Assembly (NCBI RefSeq): GCF_003289625.1
Contig: NZ_QMBN01000002.1
Coordinates: 952,610 to 1,016,609, forward strand
Source of the DNA: Microbacterium sp. SMR1
GTDB lineage: Bacteria > Actinomycetota > Actinomycetes > Actinomycetales > Microbacteriaceae
Reading direction: 5' to 3'
DNA: 64,000 nucleotides
Positions 25,375-61,516 of the stretch are shown here, in pieces. Below the pieces are notes generated by a model, which did no database searches, had not been told where the DNA came from, and worked only from the letters and a program-made list of their open reading frames with translations. The first letter of the stretch is position 1. The number at the start of each line of letters is the position of its first letter. The position numbers and the translations under genes were made by a program.

Positions 25375-26520
25375 GTGAACGACGTGCCGGACTCTGTTCC
25401 GACCGTGCCGGCCGGCTGGCATCCCGATCCATCGGGACAGCAGCAGCTCAGGTATTGGGACGGCCAGCGATGGACCGATCACGTCTCGCCCTACCCCGTG
25501 GCGGAGCAGTCGGCGTCGGATGCCGCGCCGGCGGCGGCCCCCGCTGCCGCGCCCGGTCCCGCGCCCAAGAACCCCGGGCAGAAGGTGATGACGCGCGCGA
25601 CCTGGATCGTGCTGGCGGCCACACTCCTCATCGTCGGCGGCGCAGCCGGATTCGTCGGTTGGACCGTCGTCTCGGCCAACGCAGCAGCGACGTCGGAGGC
25701 GCCGGATGTCGTCGACGGCTTCCTCGCCGCCGCCACAGCCGACGAGCCCGGCTGGACGGAGTACGCCTCGCCCGGGTACATCGCGATCTCGGGGTCGGCG
25801 ACGCCTCTGTTCGGCGATGCGCGTGCCGCGGAGGTGCTCGACCTCTCTATCGAGTACGACCGGCGCGGCATTTTCTATGGAACCAACGGCGCCGCCGGCT
25901 ACGAGTCGCCCAGCGGCGCGGACACCGCCAAAGCACTGGTCGATGTGACCTACACCTTCACCGTCGACGGCACGCCGCAGACGGCGACCTCGACCCGCGA
26001 GATCTGGCTGACCCGGCCCTACTACTACGGTGACGATGTGCCCTCCGGCGCTCGCCAGGGGGAGACTCCGACGGCCATCGGTCCCTGGCGGGTGACGGGC
26101 GCCGCTTCGGCGTCGTCGTACGACGGAGCGGTCGTCGCGACGACGAGCTTCGAGCCCGCCCGTATCGATCAGGCCTGTTACACCTCCGACGTCGTGCTGT
26201 CGCAGATGTCCGAGATCGCGCGCACCGAGGGCGTGCTGGCCGCGGTCTGCCTGAGCGGCGGAACCTCGACCTCCTTCGACGACGGCATCGACATCGACGC
26301 CCTCGCCGCCGGGTTCCCCGTCGTCGGCCAGGCTGCGCCGCTGACCGATTTGATGGGGTGGCACAACGATCCCAACACTCCGGCACCCCTCGAGCAGTAC
26401 CTGATCTCTTCGGGCGGGACCGACTACGTCTTCGTTCTCGCCTCGACCGGCGTCGGCGGCGAGCTGACGACCGACTCCGAGCGCCGCATCATCCTCATCT
26501 CGAAGGCGGAGACCCGATGA
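25375..26520 (+). CDS. DUF2510 domain membrane protein
   Basis: 381 residues, GTG start behind GGGCGAGGGGGA. Residues about 13-38 (GWHPDPSGQQQLRYWDGQRWTDHV) form the DUF2510 motif, a short Trp-rich cytoplasmic module of actinobacteria. An Ala/Pro linker, one membrane helix (about 74-96) and a large extracytoplasmic domain follow. The outer domain is not recognised. It contains two cysteines (QACYTSD and AAVCLSGG) that could form a disulfide. The gene overlaps the next one by 4 nt; the two proteins share the single-helix-plus-outer-domain design. Confidence 0.82.
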   Translation: MNDVPDSVPTVPAGWHPDPSGQQQLRYWDGQRWTDHVSPYPVAEQSASDAAPAAAPAAAPGPAPKNPGQKVMTRATWIVLAATLLIVGGAAGFVGWTVVSANAAATSEAPDVVDGFLAAATADEPGWTEYASPGYIAISGSATPLFGDARAAEVLDLSIEYDRRGIFYGTNGAAGYESPSGADTAKALVDVTYTFTVDGTPQTATSTREIWLTRPYYYGDDVPSGARQGETPTAIGPWRVTGAASASSYDGAVVATTSFEPARIDQACYTSDVVLSQMSEIARTEGVLAAVCLSGGTSTSFDDGIDIDALAAGFPVVGQAAPLTDLMGWHNDPNTPAPLEQYLISSGGTDYVFVLASTGVGGELTTDSERRIILISKAETR

Positions 26521-27899
26521 CCGACACGACTGAAGCGCAGCCCGTGGCATCACCGCAGCCGAAGCCTCGCAACCGCGCGGCGCGCACGATGCAGATCGTC
26601 ATCGCCTCCCTCGGCATCGGTGCGCTGCTGATGACCGTCGCCGCGGGCGTCGTGCTGTGGCCGCGGACGCCCGAGGCCGGGCCGACGGCCGATGTTCCGG
26701 TCGCGTGGGCTCCGTGGGCCGACAACGACCTGGCGACTCCCACCAGCGCCACGTTCGCCGAGATGAACGCCGCGATGCGCGACAAGGATCGCGAGCGGTT
26801 CCTCGCTCACGCTACGGGTGACGCGGCGACGCAGCTCGCGCTGTGGTGGGACAACTCGAGCAAGATCGGGTGGGATGTCGCGGCGATCGCGCCGTCGGAC
26901 CTCGACGTCGACGAGACCGGCACCATTGAGGTCATCCTCGGCGCTCAGTATGCGTTCGCGGCGCAGCCGCAGCGAGGCGACGGTGACAGCGACGCCGGCC
27001 TCGACCTCATTCAGGGCTTCGCCTACACCGTGACCTTCGAGCCCGGTACCGTCCCCAGCCGGTCGTTCGACCGGTACGAGGAGACGGAACCGCCCGAGCC
27101 CGCTACGATCACGTCCATCGTCCCCGCGCGCGAGCCGAACCCGTGGGACGAAGGCGAGATCTACGTCACCAAGCGCGACCACGTCGTCCTTTTCGGTATG
27201 AGCGACGAGGCTGAGCTAGTCGATCAGAACGCGGATGCTGCCGAGCGGTCGGCCGTCATTGCGCTGGACACGATCCGCGCCCTCGGCGGCGAGCCGACGC
27301 AGGACGGCTTCGTGTCCGCGATCACCGACGACGATGACCGCTTCCAGCGCTGGCAGTACGGCAAGGGCACGCCGTGGGACATGGATGTCGCCGGTTACGC
27401 GCGTCCGACTCTCCGACCGCAGATCGCGCAGCGCTTCCTCGACCCCGTGATCGCGACGGGATCCGACACCTCCGGAACGCTCATCGTGATGGGCCCGGGC
27501 AGCGCGTCGGGTCGCGAGCAGGTGTTCGTCCACGAGTTCGCACACGGCCTTCACTACGCAGCGGCGCCCGGGTCGTTCATCGCACCGCCCGTGGCGGTCC
27601 ACGAGGGATTCGCCCGCTTCGTCGAATGGAAATCGGGGCTCGCCGATCCCGGGTACCTCCGGCCTGAGGTGAAGGCCGCCGTCGCCGCGCAGGGGATGGG
27701 TGCCTTCACCGACGAGGCGCTGCGCAGCAAGGACGCGAACCTCGCGTACGACGCCGCGGGCTCGTTCTACGCCTACGCCGATGCCTATGACGGGTCGGCC
27801 TGGACGATGGCAGTGGATTCGGTCCTCGGCGGCGGATTCTTCGTCGACAGCACCGAATTCACCGAGGCCGACTGGCAGGCGTGGGTCGCGTCGCAGTGA
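26517..27899 (+). CDS. Membrane-anchored zinc metallopeptidase-like protein
   Basis: 460 residues from an ATG overlapping the previous stop. One membrane helix (about 27-48) leaves a large outer domain. VFVHEFAHGLHYA has the HExxH zinc motif, and VHEGFARFVEW about 20 residues later supplies a glutamate in the gluzincin arrangement, so it looks like an active peptidase of the M1/MA-like group. The region before (about 60-250) resembles a small ligand-binding or NTF2-like domain. It is coupled to the DUF2510 protein, suggesting a joint envelope function. The substrate is unknown. Confidence 0.75.
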   Translation: MTDTTEAQPVASPQPKPRNRAARTMQIVIASLGIGALLMTVAAGVVLWPRTPEAGPTADVPVAWAPWADNDLATPTSATFAEMNAAMRDKDRERFLAHATGDAATQLALWWDNSSKIGWDVAAIAPSDLDVDETGTIEVILGAQYAFAAQPQRGDGDSDAGLDLIQGFAYTVTFEPGTVPSRSFDRYEETEPPEPATITSIVPAREPNPWDEGEIYVTKRDHVVLFGMSDEAELVDQNADAAERSAVIALDTIRALGGEPTQDGFVSAITDDDDRFQRWQYGKGTPWDMDVAGYARPTLRPQIAQRFLDPVIATGSDTSGTLIVMGPGSASGREQVFVHEFAHGLHYAAAPGSFIAPPVAVHEGFARFVEWKSGLADPGYLRPEVKAAVAAQGMGAFTDEALRSKDANLAYDAAGSFYAYADAYDGSAWTMAVDSVLGGGFFVDSTEFTEADWQAWVASQ

Positions 27900-28545: not shown

Positions 28546-28627
28546 GGCGAGTTACCCAAGCGGCCAAAGGGATCTGACTGTAAATCAGACTGCATTGCAT
28601 TCGGGGGTTCGAATCCCTCACTCGCCA
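28546..28627 (+). tRNA. tRNA-Tyr (GUA)
   Basis: An 82-nt class II tRNA with a long variable arm. The acceptor GGCGAGT pairs with ACTCGCC. The anticodon stem CTGACT/AATCAG frames a GTA anticodon, and GGTTCGAATC is the T arm. The 3' CCA is not encoded. TAATAT at about 28494-28499 may be the -10 box. Confidence 0.96.
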
Positions 28628-28634
28628 CATCGAG

Positions 28635-28661
28635 AAGGGCCCCCGCTGAGCGGGGGCCCTT
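28635..28661 (+). terminator. Strong intrinsic terminator after tRNA-Tyr
   Basis: A perfect 12-bp stem (28635-28646 with 28650-28661) and a TGA loop are followed by TTCGTTTTT. It ends the tRNA transcript and may also stop the lanthipeptide mRNA arriving from the other strand. Confidence 0.92.
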
Positions 28662-28695
28662 TCGTTTTTCGCTGCGGGGCGCGCGATCGGCGGAA

Positions 28696-28812
28696 TCAGC
28701 AGGCCGTCGACACGGTGCTCCGGCACAGACCGATGCTTACTGTGCTGCCTACGACAGTGCGATGTTCGTCTTCGCTCTTCTCGAGCGTCTGCAATGCCAG
28801 GATGAAACCCAT
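28696..28812 (-). CDS. lanA: Class III lanthipeptide precursor (SapB/AmfS-like LanA)
   Basis: 38 residues. The ATG at 28812 follows a near-perfect ribosome binding site (GGGAGGTGA), just after the lanKC stop. The leader begins MGFILALQTLEKSEDE. ILxLQxLE is the class III leader motif recognised by LanKC enzymes. The core ends in GSTVSIGLC and RSTVSTAC, that is two Ser-x-x-Ser-x(2-3)-Cys units (S23/S26/C30 and S32/S35/C38), the hallmark for lanthionine or labionin rings. The layout closely resembles the SapB and AmfS precursors of Streptomyces. The leader cleavage site lies somewhere between residues 16 and 22 and cannot be fixed here. Confidence 0.9.
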   Translation of the reverse strand: MGFILALQTLEKSEDEHRTVVGSTVSIGLCRSTVSTAC

Positions 28813-28825
28813 TTGTTCACCTCCC

Positions 28826-31417
28826 TCATCCTCTCGCCGCCGGAGAACCGGCGGGCACGAGCACCGGGGGGAGGAAGGGCAGAACCGGCTGGTCACTGTT
28901 CGAAGCCGGAGGCGACGCGGAGGCGAGCGCGAGCAGCACGCCCGCGGCGCCGGTCGCAAGATCGCACGACGCGCGCAGCATCCCGTCGCCCACGAAACGC
29001 GCGCCGACCGGCGCGTCGAGGGCGTGCAGCGTCATTCGCCCGAGGTGATGGTCGCGCGCGCGGACCGTGTCTGCGCTCGCGTGTCCGGTCGCCTCCAGAG
29101 AATGAAGGAAGAGGGCCAATCCGGCTCGGCCGGCGAAGAGTCCCGCCTGGACGACGAAGGGCGCCGACGCCGCGCGGATGATGCCGTGCAGCGTGACACG
29201 CAGCTCGTCATCGGCAGGCTCATGCGCCAGGTACCGTGCGAGCACGAGGCCGACGCCGGCCGACCCGTGCGCGAGGTAGGGAAGCATGCGCCATCCCTGG
29301 TCGACCTGCACCGAGCCGTCCGCGTCGCGGCGCAACGTGCGGAGGTCGACGTCGAGCGCCCGGCGGGCGATCTCGAGGAAGCGGCGCTCTCCGGTGAGCT
29401 CGAACACCCGGAGAGCCAGAAGAGCTGTCCCGCTCGCGCCGCCCATCAGGCCGCCGTGCCGTCGTGACGGCACGGGCGACGGTGCTCCCGACGGCGCGGC
29501 GTGACCGAGCAGCCCCCAGCGTTCGCGGAGGATTTCGATGATCGCGGTCGCCCGCTCGATGTTGCGCTCGGAATCGGGCTCGTCGAGCAGAGCGATGCCG
29601 ATCCCCGGAAGACCCGTCGCGAGGTCGGAGCCGAGTGACCCGACGGCGTCGTCGTGCAGGTACTCGTCGAGTGCCGTCGCCTCGTCGGCGAAGCCGAGGC
29701 GCCGGCAGGCCCAGAGCGCACCGGCCGCGCCGTCCATCAGCCCGAGGCGTGCCTGCCCGGGACGCAGCTGCGCGATCGAGCGCGACACCCACGATCGCAA
29801 CTCCGACGGAAGGGCGACCCCCGCGGCATCCAGCGCAACGGCGACCCCCAGTGCGCCGTGACCGAGGGAGAACGCAGGCTGCCCGAACTGGCGGGGATCG
29901 CCCGGCCACAGCCGGTCGGTCCGCTCGGGCGTCGCGTCGGCCACGAGCTGCTCGGCGACACGCTCGATCGATACGACGGGTGCAGGATGCCGCGCCGCAC
30001 AGTCGGCGGGCCGAAGCCGGGCGGTCATCCGCTCGCACCATTCGCGGGGCAGATCGAAGACCGCCGCGGCCTCGGTGACGAGGGCATCCGCCTTGGCCGG
30101 CTGCAGCGCCAGCGGGCTCGTCATCGGAAGGAAGACGTAGAGCTCGATGCACGCCAGAGCGTGTGCATCGCGCCGCACGGGGTCCGGCTCGTCCGGGAGG
30201 GAGAATCCCGCTGCGCCGAGGACGGCGGGCATGCGAGAGCCGACGGGAAGCGACATCTCCAGGTCGAGGAGGCTCACCGACCCGTCGGCGTCGACCATGA
30301 CGTTCGCCGGATGCAGGTCGCCGTGGGTGACGCCCGCGGCGTGCAGCCGGGTGACTTCCCTCCGCAGCGCGTCGAGCACCTGCAGCATCCGATCGCGGTA
30401 CGCGCGGCGCTCCGCTGGCGTTGAGGCGGCGGCGGTGAGCGGGCTGGTCGTCGCGACCAGCCGATCGAGGGGCTGGCCCGGAACCCGTTCCAGGGCGACG
30501 AAGCGGTGGCCGTGCGCCTCGAAGGCGGCCCTGACCGCCGGGACGCGGACCCTCCCGGCGAGAGCGCGGAGGGTGCGTTCCTCGTCGCGGAGCCGCCCGA
30601 CGGCGTCGCGCCCGTCGGGCGTCCAGCCAGCGAACGGGCGAGCCTCCTTCACGATGACCTCTGCGCCGTCGAGAGCCCCGGTGTAGACGCCGCCGGCGTT
30701 GGAGTAGTGCAGGGCACCGGTGATCTCCGGGAAACCGGGCGGCGGCTCGTGCCCGAGCGCGTCGAGTTGCCGCTGGAGAAAGGGCGGCAGTTCGATCCAG
30801 GGTGGGATGTGGAACCCCGCCGTCCGCTGGTCGGGTACCCACTTTCCCGTCCGCAGATCCTGTATGGCGGGCAGGGCATCACCGTCGACGAGGACTTCGT
30901 GGTCGGTGAAGGCACCGTACCGCACGAAGAGCGGGCCAGCGTTCCAGCGCAGGTCCGAAAGGACATACGGGCCGGGCTCGCCGCCGAGCACCTCGTCGAG
31001 CGAGACGAGGCAGTGCTCGAGGCTCCGCTCGGAAGGCGGATAGAGCGTGATGAACTTACCCGCGCCCGCGCGGTCGGCATCCTTGGCGAGCACGGCCGCG
31101 AGGGCGCGTTCGTCTCGCAGGTGCTTGAAGGCGATGGTGTGGCGGTGGCAGTACCTCGAGGCGATGTCCAGCACGGTGCCTGCCGCATCGGGAAGCGCGG
31201 TGATATGCACCTTCCATCCCTGTTCGGGCAGACGATGCGCGGGCGGCAGCCACACCGACCACGGGCCCCGTCGGCTGTGCCGCCAGCCCTGCGACGTGAG
31301 GGTCGTCGGCGCGTACACAGCGGTATTCCCGTCGGCCTCGGCGCTCGCGTCATCCGTGCCGGGCACGTCGTAGAACACCCGATCCCGTGTCGCGAAGCGC
31401 CCGAAAATCAGTTCCAT
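28826..31417 (-). CDS. lanKC: Class III lanthionine synthetase LanKC
   Basis: 863 residues. It has the three-part class III design. The N-terminal phosphoSer/Thr lyase region spans about residues 1-220. A protein-kinase-like domain spans about 230-500 (EVIVKEARPF lysine, HAAGVTHGDLHPANVMVDADGSVSLLDLE catalytic loop). A LanC-like cyclase spans about 520-850 with its AHGSAGVGLVLARYL, QAGLFAGRAGLALFL and ATGAAGVLLAL helices. The Cys-Cys-His zinc ligands of class I, II and IV cyclases are not seen, which supports class III. It should dehydrate and cyclise the 38-residue precursor encoded 13 nt downstream. RBS GGGGGAAG. No transporter or protease gene is adjacent. Confidence 0.95.
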   Translation of the reverse strand: MELIFGRFATRDRVFYDVPGTDDASAEADGNTAVYAPTTLTSQGWRHSRRGPWSVWLPPAHRLPEQGWKVHITALPDAAGTVLDIASRYCHRHTIAFKHLRDERALAAVLAKDADRAGAGKFITLYPPSERSLEHCLVSLDEVLGGEPGPYVLSDLRWNAGPLFVRYGAFTDHEVLVDGDALPAIQDLRTGKWVPDQRTAGFHIPPWIELPPFLQRQLDALGHEPPPGFPEITGALHYSNAGGVYTGALDGAEVIVKEARPFAGWTPDGRDAVGRLRDEERTLRALAGRVRVPAVRAAFEAHGHRFVALERVPGQPLDRLVATTSPLTAAASTPAERRAYRDRMLQVLDALRREVTRLHAAGVTHGDLHPANVMVDADGSVSLLDLEMSLPVGSRMPAVLGAAGFSLPDEPDPVRRDAHALACIELYVFLPMTSPLALQPAKADALVTEAAAVFDLPREWCERMTARLRPADCAARHPAPVVSIERVAEQLVADATPERTDRLWPGDPRQFGQPAFSLGHGALGVAVALDAAGVALPSELRSWVSRSIAQLRPGQARLGLMDGAAGALWACRRLGFADEATALDEYLHDDAVGSLGSDLATGLPGIGIALLDEPDSERNIERATAIIEILRERWGLLGHAAPSGAPSPVPSRRHGGLMGGASGTALLALRVFELTGERRFLEIARRALDVDLRTLRRDADGSVQVDQGWRMLPYLAHGSAGVGLVLARYLAHEPADDELRVTLHGIIRAASAPFVVQAGLFAGRAGLALFLHSLEATGHASADTVRARDHHLGRMTLHALDAPVGARFVGDGMLRASCDLATGAAGVLLALASASPPASNSDQPVLPFLPPVLVPAGSPAARG

Positions 31418-31580
31418 CTGCTTCCCCCATGGCCCGGAACGGCGGGCTCAGGGTCATCATCCGTCCGCTCGAGCGGCGCCGCCTGCGCGGCTGCCGGCAC
31501 AAAGGCGCCCTGAGCTGCCGGTGGTGCCGCGTCGCAGCCGTTCACGGACACCGAGGCGGCGCGCAAATAGGTCCTAAAAA

Positions 31581-31598
31581 TTCATCCGAATGGATGAA
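31581..31598. promoter_or_regulatory. Palindrome between lanKC and the RamR-like gene
   Basis: TTCATCC-GAAT-GGATGAA lies in the 322-bp divergent region 31418-31739, in a locally AT-rich stretch. A related copy at 34824-34841 shares the extended GGATGAAGTAATC, and a perfect shorter form occurs at 49301-49316. It is a candidate regulator-binding site. The remainder of the intergenic region shows only the two ribosome binding sites and no convincing further gene. Confidence 0.5.
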
Positions 31599-31739
31599 GT
31601 AATCGCGATTGTTGAGAATACCCGCGGCACGGAGGTGCGAAGGACTAAAGACCTGAAACTGTTCGAAAAGCCGGGCGCCCCCTAGGCGCGCCCTGGCGCA
31701 GGTGTTTGACTGAGGCCACCCGGGAGAGGCACGGAGGCT

Positions 31740-32435
31740 ATGAATGACGAAGCGGAGACGCCGTCCGAGCCGATTGATGGGGCCCTCGACGTCGAAGACG
31801 AAGTACGGGTCCTCCTCATCAATCGACGGGACGTCGTCCGACGGGGCTTGAGAGCGGTCATCGAGGATTCGGATGACGTCGTCGTGGTGGGCGATGCGGC
31901 GCGACTCGACGACACGGGACGAATGATCGACCGGACCGAACTGGATGTCGCCATCCTCGATGCGACGGAACCGACCGCGCGCATCGTCGACACAGTCGAC
32001 ACGATCCGGCGTGTGCAGGCGAACGTTCCCGTGGTCGTGCACGGACGCACCGACGCCGGGGAAGCGAAGCGCATCGCGTGGGCGGCTGGGGCCGATGGCT
32101 ACCTTCTCGATGACGCCCGCGGGAAGGACGTCCTGCAGCTGGTGCGGCGGATCGCGCGCGGGGATGGTTCCCATGGACTGCAGGCGGTCGCGACCTCGGG
32201 CCCGCCGGCCGACGAACCGGCCGCGCCTGATCTCACCCTGCGTGAGCGGCAGGTCCTTCGTTTCATCGCCGCCGGAATGACGAACCGGCAGATCGGCCTC
32301 CGGCTCGGCCTGGCGGAGAAGACCATCAAGAATTACGTCTCGGGACTGCTCGCCAAGTTGCATCTGGAAAGTCGCACGCAGGCTGCCGTGTATCGCGTCA
32401 TTCACGACGAAAGCACGCGCAGCGGCCCTTTATGA
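31740..32435 (+). CDS. LuxR/NarL-type atypical response regulator (RamR/AmfR-like)
   Basis: 231 residues, RBS GGAGGC before the ATG. The C-terminal GerE/LuxR helix-turn-helix is standard (LTLRERQVLRFIAAGMTNRQIGLRLGLAEKTIKNYVSGLLAKL, about residues 165-207). The receiver-like N-terminal half keeps an Asp at the phosphorylation position (AILDATEP, D74). It lacks the usual acidic pair (VLLINRRD) and the conserved lysine (GYLLDDARG). No kinase gene is adjacent. Orphan, atypical NarL regulators called RamR/AmfR activate SapB-type lanthipeptide genes in Streptomyces. Divergence from lanKC suggests the same job here (inference). Confidence 0.88.
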   Translation: MNDEAETPSEPIDGALDVEDEVRVLLINRRDVVRRGLRAVIEDSDDVVVVGDAARLDDTGRMIDRTELDVAILDATEPTARIVDTVDTIRRVQANVPVVVHGRTDAGEAKRIAWAAGADGYLLDDARGKDVLQLVRRIARGDGSHGLQAVATSGPPADEPAAPDLTLRERQVLRFIAAGMTNRQIGLRLGLAEKTIKNYVSGLLAKLHLESRTQAAVYRVIHDESTRSGPL

Positions 32436-32631
32436 GCGAGATGGTCCTTTCGACGTCGAAGGTCGAAGGGACGAATGGCACTGCCGACCTCGCTCGGTCG
32501 TGGTCGAGGGTGACCATACGCATCCCCGTGAAAGGGAGCGTCTGCACCCCGCCCCGGAGAGAGGGAGACGCCATGACCGGCATGAGACAGGAAGCCTCGC
32601 ATCACTCGTCGACGGAAAAGCAGGTCGCGCC

Positions 32632-34737
32632 ATGACGGCGCGTTCAGTCGTCGCGTCTCGCGGCGATCGGCTCGGCGCGAGCAGCCGTGGCGTCATCGCT
32701 GCACTGGGAGCTCTCGTCGTCGCGGCGCTCGTGATGTTCCCGCTCGGTCCCGCCGCGCATGCGCGCATCGATGATGCGACGCCCATCGGTGATGGTCAGA
32801 TCGGCCCCAACACCGAGATCCAGATCACGAGCCTCGGCCCGGGGGCGACGCTTCCCGGTCTCGAACCTCCCTCGCCCGTCACCCAAGACCCGCAGGCGCC
32901 GTATCCGACGAGCAACCCCGAGGGATACGCGTCGGTCTCGACGTTCGCCGGCACGATCGTCGCGTCGAGCGTCTCGGACCCGTCGCTGACAGCTGAGATG
33001 TACTGCATCAATCTGCGCGTCTCGACCTACGTGGGGATCGGATACGAGTCCGGCAGTTGGGAGGAGTCGAACGTGCCCAACATCGGGTACGTCACCTACA
33101 TCCTCAACAACTTCTATCCCACCGTTCCGGAACCGGCGGGTCTGTCGGCGAACCAGCAGGCTGCCGCCGTGCAGTCGGCGATCTGGTACTTCACCGATGG
33201 CTATGTGCTCAGCACCACGGCGAGTTCCACGGTGCGCGAGGCCACGGCGGCGATCGTCGCGGCAGCTCAGGCCGCCGGTCCCGTCGTGGAGCCGCCCGCG
33301 CCTGAAGTGAGCATCACGCCGGAGTCCGACACGGTCGGAGCGACATCGAGTGCCGGGCCTTACACGGTCACCGCCGAGGGAGCGACCGACGTCACCGTCT
33401 CCGTTCCCGGCGGGTACGCCATGTTCACGGATGAGGCGGGCATGGAGCCCCTGGCAAACCCCGCGACCGTCCCATCGGGCACCGACATCTGGGTGAGAGT
33501 CCCCGACGGATCACCGGGAGAAGCGGTGATCAACGCGCGCGCGACGGTGACCGTCCAGCGCGGACAGGTCTACCTGTACGACGGCAACACCCCGGACCTC
33601 GCCGACGCGCAGCGGCTCATCCTCGCAGACACCGCCGAACTCGACGCGGTCGACTCTGCGGTGGCGGAGTTCCTCGCCGTGGGCTCGCTGACGGTCAGCA
33701 AGGCGTTCGCCGGTGAGGCGCTCGGGTTGCAGGGCGACATCCAGCTGGCGATCGACTGCGGCGAGGGCTACGCCTATACCGCCGACATCCCCGCCGGTAC
33801 CGCGTCGACGCAGACCTTCACGTACTCGGGCATCCCAGTGGGCACGACCTGCACCGTGACCGAACCGGTCACGGGCGCGAACACGGCCGTCGACGTCTCG
33901 ACGGATGCCGGCCAGGACGCTGAGATCACGTCGGAGGGTGCGGCCGTCACCATCACCAACACGGTGACCTATCTGCCGGGAGAGCTGCGAGTCGTCAAGA
34001 ACATCGACGGCGACGCGGCGGGGCAACAGGGTGCCATCTCGCTGCGCATCGTGTGCGGAGACGTCCTCGACGAGACGTTCGAGATCCCCGCGGGTGCTGC
34101 CGCGGGGGAGTACGAGCAGCTCTTCACCGACATCCCCGCGGGTACCGAGTGCACCGTCACGGAGCTGGAATCGGGCGCAACGGCGCAGGTCGACGTCACG
34201 ACCGGCGCCCCGGTCACGGTGGCGATCGAGCCGGGCGCGACGGTCGATGCCGCCCTGGCCAACGACGTCGTGTATCTGCCCGGTTCGTTGCGGGTCGTGA
34301 AGACGATCACGGGTGGTGGCGCCGGCTTGCAGGGCGACATCGAGCTCACCGTCCGTTGCGATGACGGGGCCGTGCTCGATGAGACGTTCACGATCCCCGC
34401 GAGGAGTGCAGCGGGCGACTACGAGCAGGTGTACACCGACCTGCCCGCCGGTTCGGACTGCGTCGTCACGGAGACGAAGGCGGGAACGACCGCGCTGGTC
34501 CAGGTAGCCACCGCCGACCCGGTCACGGTAGAGATCCCACCGGGCGACACCGTCGACGCGGCCCTCGTGAACGACGTCCGCGGCGGCAAGCCGGTGGTCC
34601 CGGGTCACAGCGCCCTGCCCGCCACCGGTGGCAGCGAACCGCACCTGGCCCTCATGCTCGGACTGGGCAGCATGATGGTCGGTCTGCTCCTGCTGGCGGG
34701 AGGCTTGCGGGTCCACCGTCAGCGCGCGATCCGCTGA
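32632..34737 (+). CDS. Sortase-anchored thioester-domain surface protein
   Basis: 701 residues. The ATG at 32632 is chosen because a signal peptide follows (GVIAALGALVVAALVMFPLGPAAHA). The frame is open upstream but codes implausible residues. A TQXA-type thioester domain covers about residues 95-215: Cys125 in MYCINL and Gln181 in AVQSAIWYFTDG can form the internal thioester used by Gram-positive adhesins for covalent binding. Three DUF5979-like beta repeats follow (each with LRVVK/LTVSK, a CGDG-like segment and AGTxCTVTE). The end has LPATGG, a hydrophobic helix and a basic tail for sortase. Unusual as a neighbour of a lanthipeptide cassette. Confidence 0.9.
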   Translation: MTARSVVASRGDRLGASSRGVIAALGALVVAALVMFPLGPAAHARIDDATPIGDGQIGPNTEIQITSLGPGATLPGLEPPSPVTQDPQAPYPTSNPEGYASVSTFAGTIVASSVSDPSLTAEMYCINLRVSTYVGIGYESGSWEESNVPNIGYVTYILNNFYPTVPEPAGLSANQQAAAVQSAIWYFTDGYVLSTTASSTVREATAAIVAAAQAAGPVVEPPAPEVSITPESDTVGATSSAGPYTVTAEGATDVTVSVPGGYAMFTDEAGMEPLANPATVPSGTDIWVRVPDGSPGEAVINARATVTVQRGQVYLYDGNTPDLADAQRLILADTAELDAVDSAVAEFLAVGSLTVSKAFAGEALGLQGDIQLAIDCGEGYAYTADIPAGTASTQTFTYSGIPVGTTCTVTEPVTGANTAVDVSTDAGQDAEITSEGAAVTITNTVTYLPGELRVVKNIDGDAAGQQGAISLRIVCGDVLDETFEIPAGAAAGEYEQLFTDIPAGTECTVTELESGATAQVDVTTGAPVTVAIEPGATVDAALANDVVYLPGSLRVVKTITGGGAGLQGDIELTVRCDDGAVLDETFTIPARSAAGDYEQVYTDLPAGSDCVVTETKAGTTALVQVATADPVTVEIPPGDTVDAALVNDVRGGKPVVPGHSALPATGGSEPHLALMLGLGSMMVGLLLLAGGLRVHRQRAIR

Positions 34738-34744
34738 GCCTGAT

Positions 34745-34788
34745 ACGACCGTCCCCCTCCCGCTCGTCAGCGGGAGGGGGACGGTCGT
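34745..34788. terminator. Very strong hairpin terminator (20-bp perfect stem)
   Basis: 34745-34764 pairs perfectly with 34769-34788 around a CGTC loop, 8 nt after the surface-protein stop. It may also serve the convergent response-regulator gene ending at 34848. Confidence 0.85.
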
Positions 34789-34823
34789 GCGGTCGGTTGT
34801 GCGGTGAAAACCCGTGTCGAAGT

Positions 34824-34841
34824 TTCACCCGGATGGATGAA
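34824..34841. promoter_or_regulatory. Second copy of the TTCAYCC palindrome
   Basis: TTCACCC-GGAT-GGATGAA has one mismatch in the arms and is followed by GTAATC, as at 31581. It ends 7 bp before the stop codon of the response-regulator gene. The function is unknown. Confidence 0.45.
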
Positions 34842-34847
34842 GTAATC

Positions 34848-35516
34848 TCACACCCGGTTGCGCGCGCCCCACAGTGCGAGCTGGGTGCGGTCGGCGAGAT
34901 CGAGCTTCTTGAGTGCGGAATGCAGCTGCGATCGCACGGTGTGAACCGACACCTGCAGCGTCTCGGCGATGCCCTCGTTGCTCGTGACTCCGCCGGCGAG
35001 CACGGAGATCACGCGGCGCTCGGCCGAGGTCAGCAGAGCGCTTGCTTCGGGGTCTTCGGGAGCGCCGCCGCGGCGCACGAACTCTCGGATCAGCGGCGCC
35101 GTCACTCGCGACGACACGAGTGCCTCGCCCCGCGCTGCGGCGTAGATCGCGCCGACGAGCTGGTCCGAGTCGTGGCTTTTCAGCAGGTATCCGACGGCGC
35201 CCGAATCGAGTGCCTCACTGACGTAGCCGTCGACGGCGAAGCTCGTCATGACGATGACGGCGATGGGGGAGCGACCGTCGTCGGGACGAGCGAGCAGGCG
35301 CGTGGCGGACAACCCGGACATCTGGGGCATCTGGATGTCCATGAGCACGACGTCGGCGCGTTCGGCCCGTGCGACGTGAACGGCGTCGACGCCGTTCGAG
35401 ACCTCGCCGACGACCTGGATGCCGGGAGCGCCTTCGAGCTGAAGCCGCAGCCCCCGGCGCACGGCGCGATTGTCGTCGGCGATCAGAACGCGGATGCGCT
35501 CGGCCCCACGATTCAT
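34848..35516 (-). CDS. NarL/LuxR family response regulator
   Basis: 222 residues from the ATG at 35516, preceded by AAGGAGAACGGT. The receiver is canonical: the acidic pair in VLIADDNRAVRRGL, the phosphorylated Asp in VVLMDIQMP and Lys in GYLLKSHD. The C-terminal LuxR helix-turn-helix is LTSAERRVISVLAGGVTSNEGIAETLQVSVHTVRSQLHSALKKL. It starts 13 bp after the stop of the kinase gene upstream and is certainly its partner. The signal and targets are unknown; the nearby membrane and surface proteins are candidates. Confidence 0.94.
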   Translation of the reverse strand: MNRGAERIRVLIADDNRAVRRGLRLQLEGAPGIQVVGEVSNGVDAVHVARAERADVVLMDIQMPQMSGLSATRLLARPDDGRSPIAVIVMTSFAVDGYVSEALDSGAVGYLLKSHDSDQLVGAIYAAARGEALVSSRVTAPLIREFVRRGGAPEDPEASALLTSAERRVISVLAGGVTSNEGIAETLQVSVHTVRSQLHSALKKLDLADRTQLALWGARNRV

Positions 35517-35529
35517 ACCGTTCTCCTTG

Positions 35530-36810
35530 TCAGGCGATCGGGTCGATCGGGATCGCGATCCGCACATCCCATCCGCCGGTCGGCGTCGGCCCTGCGAACA
35601 GTGTGCCGCGCAACAGTTCGACGCGCTCGCGCATCCCGCGCAGGCCCCAGCCGAGATCGAGGCCCGGCACGGGCATCGAATCAGTGCCGGGTGCTTGGTT
35701 GACGACCCGGGCGCGGAGCTCCTCGTCGGTCACGGTCACCGAGATGGTGACCGGCGCTCCGGGGGCGTGTTTCGCCGCGTTCGTCAGTGCCTCCTGGAGA
35801 ACGCGGTAGGCGGTGGTCGAGACGACGGCGGGCAGATCGGACACGGCTCCGTCGAGGTCGAATGAGACCGGCATGCCGCGTTGCGACCAGAACTCCACGA
35901 GCTCACCGGCGCGACGCAGGTCGCGGGTCGTCTCGGCGGGACCAGCTGCGTCGGCGGCGTGCAGATCGCTCAGCGCACCCGCCAGGCTCGCGGCAGCGAA
36001 TCGGCCCTCGTTGCGCACCTCGCCGACCAGACGGATGGCTTCGTCGGGGCGTGCCGGTGCGAGGGAGATGGCGGCGTCGGCCAGCGTCACGAGCCCGGCG
36101 AGGTGCTGGCCGGCGACATCGTGCAGCTCTTGCGCGATGCGGGCGCGCTCGCGTTCACGCGCGTCGTTGACCCGCGCATCGTGTTCTTGGCGCGCGAGCT
36201 CGGCCTGCTCGCGAGCAAGGTTCACCTGACGAACCTGGGCGCCCCACCAGATCCCCAGGGCGGTCGCTCCGAGGGCCGGCGCGGTGAAGCGGAAGAACTC
36301 GTTCGCCATGAAGCTCAGGGCGGTACCGACATCGCCCGAGTAGAAAACGGCCCAGGTGAAGAGCCCGCCCATTCCGGCGACCACGACGCCGAGCAGGCAC
36401 ACGACGGCCGAACCGGCCGAGACCCGGCGGGCCAGAAGGAACTGCGCGAGTGCCACGACGAGATACGTGCCGATGAGCCAGTTCGGTATGTCGAAGGCGC
36501 CGAGGAGGAGGAGGTAGACGGCCACGGTTGCGAAGACCGCGATGCGGGGCCACCGATCGCTCAGGAGGACAGCCGAGGCTTGGGCCACGCATGCCAGGGC
36601 GAGGATGACGCACAGCAGCGATATCGATATGTCGAAGGGCCAATCGACGGGGCCAGCCATCATCGCGGTGATCGGCGTCGCGAGCACCTGAACGGTCGTG
36701 CTCACCGAGACGATCGCGACCAGGATCAGCGCCGCGCGACGCGTGCGGAAGAAGGTGCGCGTCGCGGATGCGTCGAGCTCAAGGCCAGGCTCTCGGGGTG
36801 GGTTCACCAC
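35530..36810 (-). CDS. Sensor histidine kinase (HisKA_3, NarX/DesK type)
   Basis: 426 residues with a tandem GTG start and GAGAGGATT upstream. About six membrane segments (residues about 25-200) are followed by a dimerisation helix with the phospho-accepting His (RERARIAQELHDVAGQHLAGLV). The ATPase domain has an N box (LQEALTNAAKHAPG) and a G box (GLDLGWGLRGMRERVELLRG). There is no extracellular sensor domain, so it probably senses membrane or envelope state. It forms an operon with the response regulator at 34848 and is divergent from the membrane protein at 36887. Confidence 0.93.
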   Translation of the reverse strand: MVNPPREPGLELDASATRTFFRTRRAALILVAIVSVSTTVQVLATPITAMMAGPVDWPFDISISLLCVILALACVAQASAVLLSDRWPRIAVFATVAVYLLLLGAFDIPNWLIGTYLVVALAQFLLARRVSAGSAVVCLLGVVVAGMGGLFTWAVFYSGDVGTALSFMANEFFRFTAPALGATALGIWWGAQVRQVNLAREQAELARQEHDARVNDARERERARIAQELHDVAGQHLAGLVTLADAAISLAPARPDEAIRLVGEVRNEGRFAAASLAGALSDLHAADAAGPAETTRDLRRAGELVEFWSQRGMPVSFDLDGAVSDLPAVVSTTAYRVLQEALTNAAKHAPGAPVTISVTVTDEELRARVVNQAPGTDSMPVPGLDLGWGLRGMRERVELLRGTLFAGPTPTGGWDVRIAIPIDPIA

Positions 36811-49067: not shown

Positions 49068-49300
49068 AGGTCGGACGCGAGACGAGGACCTAACTCGCGG
49101 CCGAGGGATCGAGCAGGCCCGCCCTGCTCCCCATCAGCGCTGGATCGCACCCGACGTCACGATCATGCCTCGCGTGGCAGGATGTCGTGGCGCGCCCGCT
49201 ATCCGCCCGCGTCGCGGAAAAATGGCCGGTGAAGCAGGATAACCGGGTCGCAACGACCTCGTGTGCGAGCTACGTATGGGCTGAAGTTCCGCGCAGGATT

Positions 49301-49316
49301 TCATCCGATCGGATGA
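49301..49316. promoter_or_regulatory. Perfect 16-bp palindrome TCATCCGATCGGATGA
   Basis: It resembles the two TTCAYCC...GGATGAA elements at 31581 and 34824 but lies downstream of the P450 gene. The function is unknown. Confidence 0.4.
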
Positions 49317-49478
49317 CGTGGCGCCGCGCGTCCCGCAGAAACCAGAACGCCCCGTCATCGGAGGATGCGGGGCGTCCCACGATCCGGGGGGAAGATCGTC
49401 GACGTCATCGACGCTAGGGCCTCCCCGCCGGTCCGTCGAGTCGGCCTTTCGGGGGACACGTCGTCTGCAGGTGACGCG

Positions 49479-57734: not shown

Positions 57735-59462
57735 ATGCTCGGCAAGCTCCTGTTCCGCTATCTGCGCACCTATCGGTGGCTGCTCCTGGGCGTGCTGGTG
57801 TTCCAGTTCGGCTCGGCGATGGCCTCGCTCTATCTGCCTCGACTGAACGCGGACATCATCGACAACGGCGTCGCCCGAGGCGACACCGCCTACATCTGGT
57901 CGCGCGGGGCCATCATGCTGGTCATCGCGCTCGGGCAGATCGTCGCGTCGGTCATCGCGACGCTGTGCGCCGCCCGTGCCGCGATGGCCGCGGGACGCGA
58001 CATCCGACGCGACGTCTTCGAGAAGGTCAGCGGCTTCTCCGAGCGCGAGGTGTCGCGCTTCGGCCCGGGCACGCTCATCACCCGCAACACGAACGACGTG
58101 CAGCAGGTGCAGATGCTCGCGATGATGGGCGCCACGATGCTCGTCACAGCTCCGATGCTCGCGATCGGCGGCGTCATCATGGCGCTGCAGCAGGATGTCG
58201 GGCTCAGTTGGCTGATCGGGGTCGCTGTGCCGCTCCTGCTCGTGGTCGCCGGGCTCATCATCGGCCGCATGGTGCCGCTGTTCCGCCAGTTCCAGACCAG
58301 GCTCGACAACGTCAACCGCATCATGCGCGAGCAGCTGACCGGCGTCCGGGTCGTGCGGGCGTTCGTCCGCGAGCGCATCGAAGAGCAGCGATTCCGCGGT
58401 GCCAACACCGACATCATGATCGTCGGGCGCAAGGTCGGGTCGCTGTTCGTGCTGATGTTCCCGCTGGCGATGCTGGTGCTCAACGTCACGGTCGTCGGCG
58501 TGATCTGGTTCGGCGGCATCCAGGTCGATCAGGGCAACGTGCAGATCGGCACGCTGTTCGCGTTCATGCAGTACGTCGGCCAGATCCTGATGGGCGTGCT
58601 CATGGCGACGTTCATGACGATCATGATCCCGCGCGCCGCGGTCTCCGCCGACCGGATCGGCGAGGTGCTCTCCTCTCAGGATGCGCTCGAGCGTCCCGCC
58701 TCGCCCGTGCGGGAGTTCCCCGAGCCGGGCGCCATCGTGTTCGACGACGTCGCGTTCACTTACCCGGGCGCCGAGACGCCGGTGCTGCAGGGCATCTCGT
58801 TCCGCGCGGATCCCGGCGAGACGGTCGCCGTCGTCGGTTCGACGGGGTCGGGCAAGACCACGCTCGTCTCGCTCATACCCCGGCTGTTCGACGTCACCGG
58901 GGGATCGGTGACGGTCGCCGGCGTCGACGTGCGCGAGGCCGACCTCGACCTGCTCTGGAGCGGCATCGGCTACGTCCCTCAGCGCGCGTTCCTGTTCACC
59001 GGCACGGTCGCGTCGAACCTCCGGTTCGGGCGGGAGGACGCGACCGACGACGAACTGTGGAAGGCACTCGAGATCGCGCAGGGGCGCGACTTCATCGCGG
59101 AGATGGAGGGAGGCCTCGAAGCGCGCATCGCGCAAGGCGGCACCAATGTCTCGGGAGGGCAACGCCAGCGGCTCGCCATCGCACGAGCGATCGTGCGGCG
59201 CCCCGACGTCCTGGTCTTCGACGACTCGTTCTCCGCGCTCGACCTCACCACGGACGCGCGACTGCGCGAAGCGCTGTGGCGCGAACTGCCGGAGGTTACG
59301 AAGATCGTCGTCGCACAGCGGATCTCCACGGTGACCGGTGCCGACCGCATCCTCGTGCTCGACGACGGCCGGATGGCGGGTCTCGGTACGCACGAAGAAC
59401 TCCTCGAGTCCAACGAGACGTATCGCGAGATCGTCGAATCGCAGCTGGGAGTGGACGCATGA
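57735..59462 (+). CDS. Heterodimeric ABC exporter subunit 1
   Basis: 575 residues, ATG behind CAAGGAGACCC. Six membrane helices form the exporter fold (about 15-320), then an ATPase with Walker A GSTGSGKTTLVSL, a normal signature NVSGGQRQRLAIARAI and Walker B LVFDDSFSALD. The catalytic glutamate is replaced by Asp, so its ATP site is degenerate, as in BmrC/TM287-type subunits. It overlaps the partner gene by 4 nt. Probably a multidrug or lipid exporter. Confidence 0.94.
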   Translation: MLGKLLFRYLRTYRWLLLGVLVFQFGSAMASLYLPRLNADIIDNGVARGDTAYIWSRGAIMLVIALGQIVASVIATLCAARAAMAAGRDIRRDVFEKVSGFSEREVSRFGPGTLITRNTNDVQQVQMLAMMGATMLVTAPMLAIGGVIMALQQDVGLSWLIGVAVPLLLVVAGLIIGRMVPLFRQFQTRLDNVNRIMREQLTGVRVVRAFVRERIEEQRFRGANTDIMIVGRKVGSLFVLMFPLAMLVLNVTVVGVIWFGGIQVDQGNVQIGTLFAFMQYVGQILMGVLMATFMTIMIPRAAVSADRIGEVLSSQDALERPASPVREFPEPGAIVFDDVAFTYPGAETPVLQGISFRADPGETVAVVGSTGSGKTTLVSLIPRLFDVTGGSVTVAGVDVREADLDLLWSGIGYVPQRAFLFTGTVASNLRFGREDATDDELWKALEIAQGRDFIAEMEGGLEARIAQGGTNVSGGQRQRLAIARAIVRRPDVLVFDDSFSALDLTTDARLREALWRELPEVTKIVVAQRISTVTGADRILVLDDGRMAGLGTHEELLESNETYREIVESQLGVDA

Positions 59463-61516
59463 GCGCCGAGAACCTCACCGACGAGGAGCGCGCCGAGCTC
59501 GAGCTCGCGGAACAGGCTCGTCAGAACTCCGGCAGCTGGGACAGTGTCGCTCCCGGCAAGGCGGCGAAGTTCGGGCCGAGCTTCCTGCGGATGATCGGTC
59601 TGCTGCGCCCCTATGCCCTCGTGTTCGGTCTCATGACGGTTCTCGGTGCCGTCGGCGTGGTTCTCGCCGTCCTCGCCCCGCGCGTGCTCGGCGATGCCAC
59701 CAACCTCATCTTCGAGGGCGTCGTCTCCGCGAACCTCGGCTCGCAATTCCCCCCGGGTACGAGCCAGGAGGACGTCGTCGCGGCGCTCAACGCCGCGGGG
59801 CAGACGGACGTCGCCAACATCGTCGGGGCGATGCAGAACTTCCAGGTGGGCGCGGGCGTCGACTTCGACCGGCTGAAGTGGGTGGTCGTCACCGTCCTCG
59901 CGATCTACGTCGGCTCCGCCGTGCTGACCTGGCTGCAGGGCTTCGTGATCAACATCATCATGGTGCGGACGATGTGGCGACTGCGCGAGTCGGTCGAGGC
60001 GAAGATCAACCGGCTGCCGCTGTCGTACTTCGACCGGGTCCAGCGCGGCGAGCTGATCTCGCGGGTCACGAACGACATCGACAACATCACGCAGACGATG
60101 CAGCAGTCTCTCTCGACTGCGCTCACGAGCGTGCTGACGGTGGTCGGCGTGCTGTTCATGATGTTCTCGATCTCGTGGCAGCTGGCGCTCGTGGCGCTCG
60201 TCTCGCTGCCGCTCATGGCCGTGATCTTCGGTGTCATCGGGCCGCGGTCGCAGAAGGCCTTCGCGGTGCAGTGGCGCAAGGTCGGCCGCTTGAACGCTCG
60301 TGTCGAGGAGTCGTTCTCGGGGCACGCCCTCGTCCGCGTGTACGGTCGCGAGCGAGACGCCCGCGAGAAGTTCGAGGCCGAGAACGACGAGCTCTTCGAA
60401 GCAGCCTTCAAGGCGCAGTTCCTCTCGGGCCTCATCATGCCGGGCATGACCTTCATCGGGAACCTCACGTACGTCGGCATCGCGGTCCTCGGCGGTCTGA
60501 TGGTCGCCTCGGGCCAGCTGCGACTCGGCGACGTGCAGGCGTTCATCCAGTACTCGCAGCAGTTCACCCAGCCGCTGTCGGAGCTCGGCGGCATGGCCGC
60601 CGTCGTGCAGTCGGGCACGGCTTCCGCTGAGCGGGTGTTCGAGCTCCTCGACGAGGACGAGCAGGACCCCGACGCTCCCGATGTCGAGCCGGCGCGCGGA
60701 GGCCGCGGCGTGATCGAGTTCGAGCATGTCCGCTTCGCCTACTCTCCCGAGAAGCCCCTCATCACCGACCTGACCTTTCGCGTCGAGCCTGGCCAGACGG
60801 TCGCCATCGTCGGTCCGACCGGGGCCGGCAAGACCACGCTCGTCAATCTCCTCATGCGTTTCTACGAGCTCGACGGCGGCCGTATCCTCCTCGACGGTCA
60901 GGACATCTCCGAGCTGTCCCGAGACGACGTGCGCTCGCGCACCGGGATGGTGCTGCAAGACCCCTGGCTCTTCGCCGGCACGATCCGCGACAACATCCGC
61001 TACGGCCGCGAGAGCGCGACCGACGACGAGATCGTCGAGGCGGCGATCGCGACGCGTGTCGACCGCTTCGTGCATTCGCTGCCCGACGGGTACGACACCG
61101 TCCTCGACGAGGATGCCGCGAACGTCTCGGCCGGCGAGAAGCAGCTCATCACGATCGCGCGCGCGTTCGTGGCGCAGCCCGCGGTGCTCATCCTCGACGA
61201 GGCGACGAGCTCCGTCGACACGCGAACCGAGCTGCTGCTGCAGCAGGCCATGTCGGCGCTGCGCGAGGGGCGGACCTCCTTCGTCATCGCGCATCGGCTG
61301 TCGACGATTCGCGATGCCGACCTCATCCTCGTGATGGAGCACGGCGACATCGTCGAGAAGGGCTCGCACGACGAGCTGATCGCGGCTCGGGGCGCCTACT
61401 GGCGTCTGTACCAATCGCAGTTCGAGCAGGCGGCGACGGAGCAGCCGGATTCGGTCGCCGAGCTCGGCGGAGCCGAGGATGCCGCGGGCGGCCGGCCGGT
61501 CTCGGCCGATCGGTAG
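59459..61516 (+). CDS. Heterodimeric ABC exporter subunit 2
   Basis: 685 residues from an ATG overlapping subunit 1; the frame is open for nearly 1.8 kb upstream only as a shadow. The transmembrane domain has an extra outer loop (about residues 80-140). The ATPase has Walker A GPTGAGKTTLVNL, Walker B VLILDEATSSVD with the catalytic Glu, and an unusual signature NVSAGEKQLITIARAF. The consensus Glu here combines with the consensus signature of subunit 1 to give one competent ATP site, as expected of a heterodimer. An acidic tail ends the protein. Confidence 0.94.
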   Translation: MSAENLTDEERAELELAEQARQNSGSWDSVAPGKAAKFGPSFLRMIGLLRPYALVFGLMTVLGAVGVVLAVLAPRVLGDATNLIFEGVVSANLGSQFPPGTSQEDVVAALNAAGQTDVANIVGAMQNFQVGAGVDFDRLKWVVVTVLAIYVGSAVLTWLQGFVINIIMVRTMWRLRESVEAKINRLPLSYFDRVQRGELISRVTNDIDNITQTMQQSLSTALTSVLTVVGVLFMMFSISWQLALVALVSLPLMAVIFGVIGPRSQKAFAVQWRKVGRLNARVEESFSGHALVRVYGRERDAREKFEAENDELFEAAFKAQFLSGLIMPGMTFIGNLTYVGIAVLGGLMVASGQLRLGDVQAFIQYSQQFTQPLSELGGMAAVVQSGTASAERVFELLDEDEQDPDAPDVEPARGGRGVIEFEHVRFAYSPEKPLITDLTFRVEPGQTVAIVGPTGAGKTTLVNLLMRFYELDGGRILLDGQDISELSRDDVRSRTGMVLQDPWLFAGTIRDNIRYGRESATDDEIVEAAIATRVDRFVHSLPDGYDTVLDEDAANVSAGEKQLITIARAFVAQPAVLILDEATSSVDTRTELLLQQAMSALREGRTSFVIAHRLSTIRDADLILVMEHGDIVEKGSHDELIAARGAYWRLYQSQFEQAATEQPDSVAELGGAEDAAGGRPVSADR

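Follow-up and report, generated by a model that had tools for sequence, protein, structure and literature searches.

The window analysed here, a stretch of 64,000 nucleotides from Microbacterium sp. SMR1 (contig NZ_QMBN01000002.1, positions 952,610 to 1,016,609), carries a class III lanthipeptide locus that is probably best described as a cassette of four genes, encoding a sensor histidine kinase (HK), a response regulator (RR2), the lanthionine synthetase LanKC and the precursor peptide LanA; the lineage of this cassette has so far been seen within one family only, most likely Microbacteriaceae. Each of the 21 full-length cassettes read in the genus (the window and loci L037-L056) links LanKC-LanA to a HisKA_3-type kinase and a NarL-type response regulator; the pair lies directly upstream of LanKC in 17, upstream beyond an insertion in three (the window, L037 and L038), and downstream of LanA in one (L043). 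A preliminary description of the window had delimited a locus of 28696-32435 holding an 863 aa LanKC, a 38 aa precursor with its leader and two Ser/Cys units, and a divergent NarL-type regulator (RR1). All of these elements are present and the three genes stand, but the extent was drawn too narrowly, as HK and RR2 (34848-36810) and a surface-protein gene (32632-34737) lie outside it.

HK has a hydrophobic, multi-pass N-terminus, and the receiver of RR2 keeps all five key residues in each of the 20 cassettes tabulated (in this receiver comparison RR2 of L053 was not recovered, and the misaligned row L186 was not counted). The start of RR2 was taken as the ATG following AAGGAG, the longer open reading frame reaching 35567. 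LanKC distances correlate with HK distances across the 21 loci (r 0.82). Besides the kinase and regulator, any one gene family turned up in at most seven of the compared cassette neighbourhoods; no ATP-binding cassette (ABC) family recurs in the 21 cassettes, with scattered ABC-ATPase matches 3-10 kb from LanKC in six of the 20 relatives, and the 3' neighbour of lanA in the window is a tRNA-Tyr gene rather than an exporter pair. No description of a kinase-regulator-LanKC-LanA unit lacking an exporter was found in the literature searched by title and start of abstract; absence from print is not claimed.

LanKC matches the class III model NF038151 at 838.7 bits (cut-off 575) over residues 7-832, while the class IV model NF038150 reaches 314.6 bits, below its cut-off of 650; the class III assignment made earlier is thereby upheld. 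The RamC_N domain (PF25816) scores 217.8 bits (cut-off 27) and Pfam Pkinase 29.6, slightly below its cut-off of 31.7; the kinase-domain residues D367, N372 and D385 are invariant across 23 LanKC rows. The best relatives of solved structure found by phmmer are LanKC enzymes (e.g., 9ugq, 8w7l and 8sao). As to zinc ligands of the LanC-like cyclase, the protein past residue 500 contains only Cys571 and Cys818, neither of which falls in the two LanC-motif stretches recognized by eye rather than by structural superposition, and LanKC is the sole LanC-like (PF05147) match in the genome. Nonsynonymous (dN) and synonymous (dS) divergence from the two closest relatives indicate purifying selection (dN 0.17; dS 0.76 and 0.64). 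LanKC-like matches occur in 30 of 295 genomes of the genus; a scan of genome contigs matched one relative along most of the query, Actinoplanes couchii, and plasmid matches are 30-40% identical among the best 20 of 44 rows. A quick tree of 57 LanKCs (L063 and L065 left out) places 23 cassette enzymes on one side of a branch with a support of 99 in the Shimodaira-Hasegawa-like approximate likelihood ratio test (SH-aLRT); two of the 23 come from other genera of the same family. This clade is nested in a 45-row group (support 97) that includes enzymes with SapB-like or AmfS-like precursors; the cassette clade stands next to enzymes of RamC/AmfT type. The two checks that the preliminary description had set as able to refute it, on Ser/Cys conservation and on the placing of LanKC, were both run and passed.

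LanA is a 38 aa peptide (MGFILALQTLEKSEDEHRTVVGSTVSIGLCRSTVSTAC) whose gene is preceded by a ribosome-binding site, GGAGGTGA, and starts 13 nt past the lanKC stop codon; the leader carries the motif ILALQTLE, and the core consists of the units S23-TV-S26-IGL-C30 and S32-TV-S35-TA-C38, the C-terminal residue being Cys. The precursor exceeds both curated cut-offs, with 29.3 bits for the RamS family PF19402 (cut-off 24.3) and 29.2 bits for SapB_AmfS NF033212 (cut-off 25), which bears out its earlier assignment to the SapB/AmfS family; the order LanKC-then-LanA is likewise upheld, and the match of the locus as a whole is well beyond chance. At an expectation value (E) of 0.01 each model matches 16 of the 17 same-genus precursors compared. 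These 17 each lie directly 3' of their own LanKC; outside the set are L038 and L041 (identical to included rows), L042 (one residue different), L054 (lanA in the LanKC frame), L065 (truncated LanKC) and L110 (other genus). No variation occurs at L5, L7, Q8, S23, S26 or C38, and C30, S32 and S35 are conserved at 90% or more, so the Ser/Cys units on which the preliminary description relied hold up in these precursors. The residues of the predicted rings are mostly small ones (Ser, Thr, Ala and Gly), with Ile, Val or Leu only here and there, whereas the rings of SapB-type cores are Leu-rich; overall hydropathy nevertheless overlaps between the two.

Three further features of lanA genes were seen. 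The G+C content of lanA is 58%, compared with 72% for lanKC and 70% for the window. At L054:8790-11477 lanA continues the LanKC frame as its C-terminus, which may be a natural fusion but, the genome being a draft, could also come from a frameshift or a sequencing error; at L037:12575-12661 a partial second copy of the lanA core lies ~1.4 kb beyond the intact lanA, adjoining tRNA-Tyr.

Table 1. Features of the cassette and its surroundings, in window positions.
Feature	Position	Strand	Basis or location
tRNA-Tyr (gta), edge of variable block	28546-28628	plus	block 28667-34822 absent as a unit in two relatives
Terminator-like hairpin	28634-28662	.	between lanA and tRNA-Tyr
lanA, SapB/AmfS-family (RamS) 38 aa precursor	28696-28812	minus	curated models, Ser/Cys conservation
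lanKC, 863 aa class III lanthionine synthetase with lyase, kinase and LanC-like cyclase parts	28826-31417	minus	profile models, tree
Perfect dyad TTCATCC-N4-GGATGAA, candidate RR2 operator or RNA hairpin	31581-31598	.	181 bp upstream of lanKC start
RR1, NarL-type regulator, 231 aa, degenerate receiver	31740-32435	plus	domain models, receiver residues
TED/TQXA surface protein, 701 aa: thioester domain PF08341, DUF5979 repeats, LPATG anchor	32632-34737	plus	domain models
Second dyad copy, 1 mismatch	34824-34841	.	just past RR2 stop codon
RR2, NarL-type response regulator, canonical receiver (D/D/D/T/K), GerE DNA-binding domain	34848-35516	minus	domain models, receiver residues
HK, HisKA_3 sensor kinase, hydrophobic N-terminal half, likely RR2 partner	35530-36810	minus	domain models, linkage

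RR1 and the thioester surface-protein gene sit between RR2 and lanKC on the opposite strand, and look like a separate module. The insertion is limited to the window and its two nearest relatives (G216 and G221); RR1 is thus near LanKC in three of the 21 cassettes, against 21 of 21 for the kinase and its canonical regulator, and the view of RR1 as the counterpart of RamR is not sustained. At E 1e-10 the surface protein (P0004-type) is matched in 40 of 295 genomes, with many weak matches confined to the DUF5979 part; at E 1e-40 matches remain in 23 genomes, 20 of which are outside the window's trio. At least five of these 20, a lower bound drawn from the RR1 matches listed and from surface-protein matches at E 1e-40 or better, have an RR1-type gene (38-45% identical) no more than 1.2 kb from the surface-protein gene, and no LanKC occurs in the stretches read around those pairs. 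It is therefore more likely that RR1 partners the surface-protein gene than lanKC. This pairing is weakened by the closest RR1 relative listed outside the trio (G174, 53%), which does not adjoin its surface protein, and by two of the five RR1-type genes near surface proteins (L202 and L203), which have canonical or near-canonical receivers; the nine surface-protein loci read are not a blind sample, five having been chosen for a known nearby RR1-type match. RR1-like regulators are widespread (168 of 295 genomes at E 1e-20). The five key receiver positions of RR1 are N, R, D, G and D; of the 12 regulators near LanKC loci across the class, 10 also have a degenerate receiver (five of them H/D/D/A/K), which explains the earlier impression of RR1 as RamR-like, while six of the 12 are matched better by RR1 and the other six by RR2, at 27-31% identity. 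RR1 as the main regulator of LanKC was set aside on linkage, which is not an exclusion; it may also act on lanKC, because the two genes diverge from a shared intergenic region. A 67 aa open reading frame between RR1 and the surface protein was rejected as a gene, its reading frame not being kept open in the two closest relatives.

The intergenic region upstream of lanKC contains a perfect dyad which is likely the site of RR2. Of 22 loci (the 21 cassettes and L065, with its truncated LanKC), 16 have it at three mismatches or fewer in the 500 bp upstream of lanKC, at 180-280 bp, as do 13 of 19 when the window, L037 and L038 are removed; 200 dinucleotide shuffles gave a mean of 0.26 and a maximum of two of the 22 loci. 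It was found in none of 10 non-cassette LanKC loci, nor, at two mismatches or fewer, in any of the nine surface-protein loci. At some sites (L039, L052 and L053) both arms have changed together. A genome-wide search at one mismatch or fewer gave six sites, compared with none for a reversed control pattern: two belong to this locus, one is inside an ABC-transporter gene, one is at or in a coding region as judged by eye, one is ~160 bp beyond a gene end, and one lies, also by eye, 25 bp past the stop of an acyltransferase-like gene and ~260 bp before the next start. The dyad copy at 49300-49317 of the window (1 mismatch) stands at such a distance, ~160 bp, from a gene with its end at 49479, which by eye resembles a P450 peroxygenase.

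The dyad could alternatively be a weak terminator or attenuator of the HK-RR2 transcript rather than an operator, a possibility that is credible though the less likely of the two. It folds at -8.4 kcal/mol and is followed by a T-run, as suits a terminator, and it often stands right at the RR2 stop codon even where LanKC is absent: among 20 HK-RR loci without intact LanKC it occurs near the RR2 stop, after RR2, in eight at three mismatches or fewer. Against this reading, five of these 20 loci have it before HK instead (13 of 20 in all, counts made with no shuffle control); and in the window and its two relatives it is well preserved at lanKC, with 0, 0 and 1 mismatches, despite RR2 being 3.4-3.7 kb away (the RR2-to-lanKC gap of L053 was not used).

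The two-component pair is the stable part of the cassette, and the peptide genes are the part that appears and disappears. HK matches at E 1e-35 are present in 53 of 295 genomes, 28 of which have no LanKC match at all (two of the 28 rest on weak HK matches); the 20 HK-RR loci without intact LanKC that were read come from 18 of these 28 genomes, together with a second copy in G084 and the locus of G170, which has LanKC remnants. On a tree of 42 kinases, 21 with and 21 without intact LanKC and with L047 left out, LanKC presence changes 11 times, at least 10 of them on starred branches, against a shuffled mean of ~14. Repeated loss is a likelier account of this than repeated gain, though an unproved one, because LanKC and HK distances agree, LanKC is truncated in L065, and a remnant persists in L189. 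G207 and G059 lack the block 28667-34822 as a whole, with only 31 and 56 bp between the HK-RR2 side of the window and the tRNA-Tyr side; between these two LanKC-less genomes the pair is under purifying selection (RR2 dN 0.09, dS 0.66; HK dN 0.21, dS 0.76). It looks like tRNA-flanked hot spots have been used repeatedly: the cassettes of the window, L037, L038 and, in opposite orientation, L055 adjoin tRNA-Tyr, and tRNA-Leu (cag) is within 8 kb of seven LanKC loci (L039, L042, L043, L050, L053, L054 and L056); the same tRNA genes are also near some LanKC-less HK-RR loci. A mobile-element reading of the tRNA edge was left as a note, no integrase or att-repeat search having been made. The divergent cassettes of L055:5989-11238 and window 28546-36810 share the same tRNA-Tyr gene in opposite orientations.

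It is proposed, as the probable working of the system, that HK and RR2 control the production of a secreted peptide with two rings. HK would sense an envelope or environmental signal and phosphorylate RR2, which would bind the dyad ~180-280 bp upstream of lanKC and switch on lanKC-lanA; LanKC would bind the ILALQTLE leader helix, phosphorylate the core Ser (perhaps Thr) residues and eliminate the phosphate, and join the dehydro residues to the two Cys, so that two rings form, of lanthionine or labionin type. Leader removal would then fall to a housekeeping M1-type peptidase, and release of the peptide to an unlinked ABC exporter. The binding of RR2 to the dyad, the ring chemistry, the protease and the exporter are all predictions, whereas the genes present, their families and conservation, the link to HK-RR2, the conserved dyad, the lack of an adjoining exporter pair and the gain or loss of the peptide genes are observed. 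Synthetases of the LanKC family bind the leader helix through an LELQL-like motif, dehydrate through kinase and lyase activities and cyclise independently of metal (PMC10604976); those grouped with RamC and AmfT form lanthionine rings, labionin rings or a mixture, and sequence is a poor guide to which (PMC13380574). Actinobacterial class III clusters are described as usually lacking a protease (PMC7268733), and M1 enzymes encoded elsewhere can act as class III leader proteases (PMC10885120); two M1 peptidases are encoded elsewhere in the genome. Tandem ABC exporter genes at window 57789-61378 are two of the genome's three best ram-type matches (27-30% identity) and represent a possible unlinked exporter. 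At window 26511-27899 an HEFAH metallopeptidase-like motif occurs in a product with no Pfam family above cut-off, a relative of which is near the divergent cassette L055.

Several observations weigh against this proposal. HK-RR2 is kept without LanKC in many genomes, so the pair probably regulates something else too, and at L111, in another genus, a regulator was found while neither kinase nor precursor was. The dyad is missing at three mismatches from six of the 22 loci, four of which have their best site at a similar place with 4-5 mismatches; its fold and its position at the RR2 stop codon would also suit a terminator, and the six genome-wide sites gave no clear regulon in the genome's own sequence. 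The exporter and protease assignments are guesses; even the genome's three best matches to a ram-type ABC exporter are only 27-34% identical to it.

The likeness of the cassette to the ram locus of S. coelicolor (SapB) and the amf locus of S. griseus (AmfS) is partial. A RamC/AmfT-type LanKC is followed directly by a RamS-family precursor with two S-x2-S-x2-3-C units, and NarL-type regulators are nearby. The mirror of ram/amf drawn in the preliminary description is nevertheless not supported: the ABC exporter pair that follows the precursor in ram/amf is not beside lanA, and the constant regulator is a two-component pair rather than the orphan RamR. The cassette LanKCs also form a separate clade, and their rings contain small residues and few Leu. 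In three named Streptomyces records the order is lanKC, SapB/AmfS precursor, ABC, ABC, with an opposite-strand response regulator in two of the three. RamR is listed as an orphan regulator (PMC9739842); the survey of PMC4255298 describes the same genes at the SapB locus and notes that Kribbella flavida, a simpler actinomycete, has a ramS-like gene; within that survey ramR was limited to streptomycetes. The durhapeptin (dur) cluster of Streptomyces durhamensis likewise has a SapB/AmfS-family precursor, two SXXSXXXC motifs and a LanKC grouped with RamC and AmfT, but it contains transporter genes and a response regulator and its rings are supported as labionin (PMC13380574), as against the lanthionine or labionin predicted for the cassette. 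More than 4,000 SapB/AmfS-family sequences (PMC13380574) and 2,377 class III clusters (PMC7268733) have been counted.

Class III clusters of Brevibacterium and Corynebacterium casei come, like the cassette, from non-filamentous actinobacteria and likewise have LanKC and a precursor in which the Ser/Ser(Thr)/Cys motif occurs twice, but differ in their ABC components, an often present prolyl oligopeptidase and, for some, location on a 96-kb island (PMC5719810). With these and the microvionin of M. arborescens (PMC10604976) already published, the presence of a class III peptide in a non-filamentous actinobacterium is in itself unsurprising. Microvionin and other lipolanthines share with the cassette a class III LanKC and probably, in M. 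arborescens, the genus. Lipolanthines need LanD decarboxylase and acyl-chain genes, neither of which was seen as a constant partner in the cassettes, though no family search was made. Leader proteases encoded outside the cluster (PMC10885120) would be a further likeness. Elsewhere in the genus, at L058:8687-11522, a LanKC is followed by two short precursors ending in SSVSYNCG and SSASWNCGG, reminiscent of lipolanthines.

For the role of the peptide outside the cell, surface-active, antagonistic and signalling functions are considered comparably likely. The surfactant role in aerial growth known from Streptomyces is unsupported for this peptide, though still conceivable. An antibacterial or lipolanthine-like peptide directed at competitors is conceivable but unlikely. 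Microvionin is antibacterial, labyrinthopeptin-type cores end in Cys, as does the lanA core, and the patchy gain and loss of the peptide genes fits warfare genes. Production of microvionin by M. arborescens (PMC10604976) points the same way; however, no immunity, exporter or decarboxylase gene was seen as a constant partner of the cassette (no family search for these was made), and in the LanKC tree the window's enzyme stands apart from the lipolanthine-looking L058.

It is also doubtful that the modified peptide is itself the ligand of HK, the cassette then being a peptide signalling system with an autoinducer loop. The modifying enzyme, peptide, membrane kinase and regulator are linked in every one of the 21 cassettes, the N-terminus of HK is hydrophobic and multi-pass, and HK-RR persists through at least 10 gains or losses of LanKC-LanA, as expected for senders and receivers. 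Core and sensor distances, however, show a partial correlation of only r 0.11 once kinase and LanKC distances are given (permutation p 0.15, 19 loci, L047 and L054 not used); sensor-to-kinase divergence is the same whatever the presence of LanKC (median ratios 1.39, 1.38 and 1.38); and L039 and L041 have identical precursors with sensors 29% apart. A broader version, in which the lanthipeptide is a signal or public good, selection maintains the HK-RR2 receiver and the LanKC-LanA sender is lost repeatedly, so that some species of the genus can only respond, is rather improbable.

Least probable is a ram/amf-like locus in which RR1 is the RamR counterpart and the product a SapB-like surfactant: RR1 is an orphan with a degenerate receiver, like 10 of the 12 regulators near LanKC loci across the class, that diverges from lanKC over the intergenic region holding the dyad, the precursor passes the RamS model, and the genome encodes a chaplin-repeat protein with a sortase-type anchor, but RR1 is near LanKC in only the three cassettes, RR1-type genes lie close to the surface-protein gene and away from LanKC in at least five of 20 genomes, no ABC pair follows lanA, the lanA rings hold few Leu compared with SapB-type cores, and chaplin repeats are not enriched with LanKC (eight of 20 other LanKC genomes versus 29 of 48 without). 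The chaplin-like protein (G000:C2:120931-121887; L217:3348-4772) is 474 aa long with six PF03777 repeats, five of them above cut-off, and a C-terminal LAKTG sortase-type anchor; it has matches in 37 of the 68 other genomes of the genus searched.

SapB/AmfS-family precursors are thus not tied to the ram/amf arrangement; in this genus they belong to a compact unit that includes a conserved candidate operator, is linked to a sensor kinase and lacks an adjoining exporter pair. Because close species differ in whether one and the same chromosomal site holds the peptide genes, the role of the peptide can be tested directly, and the kinase provides a handle on when such peptides are made.

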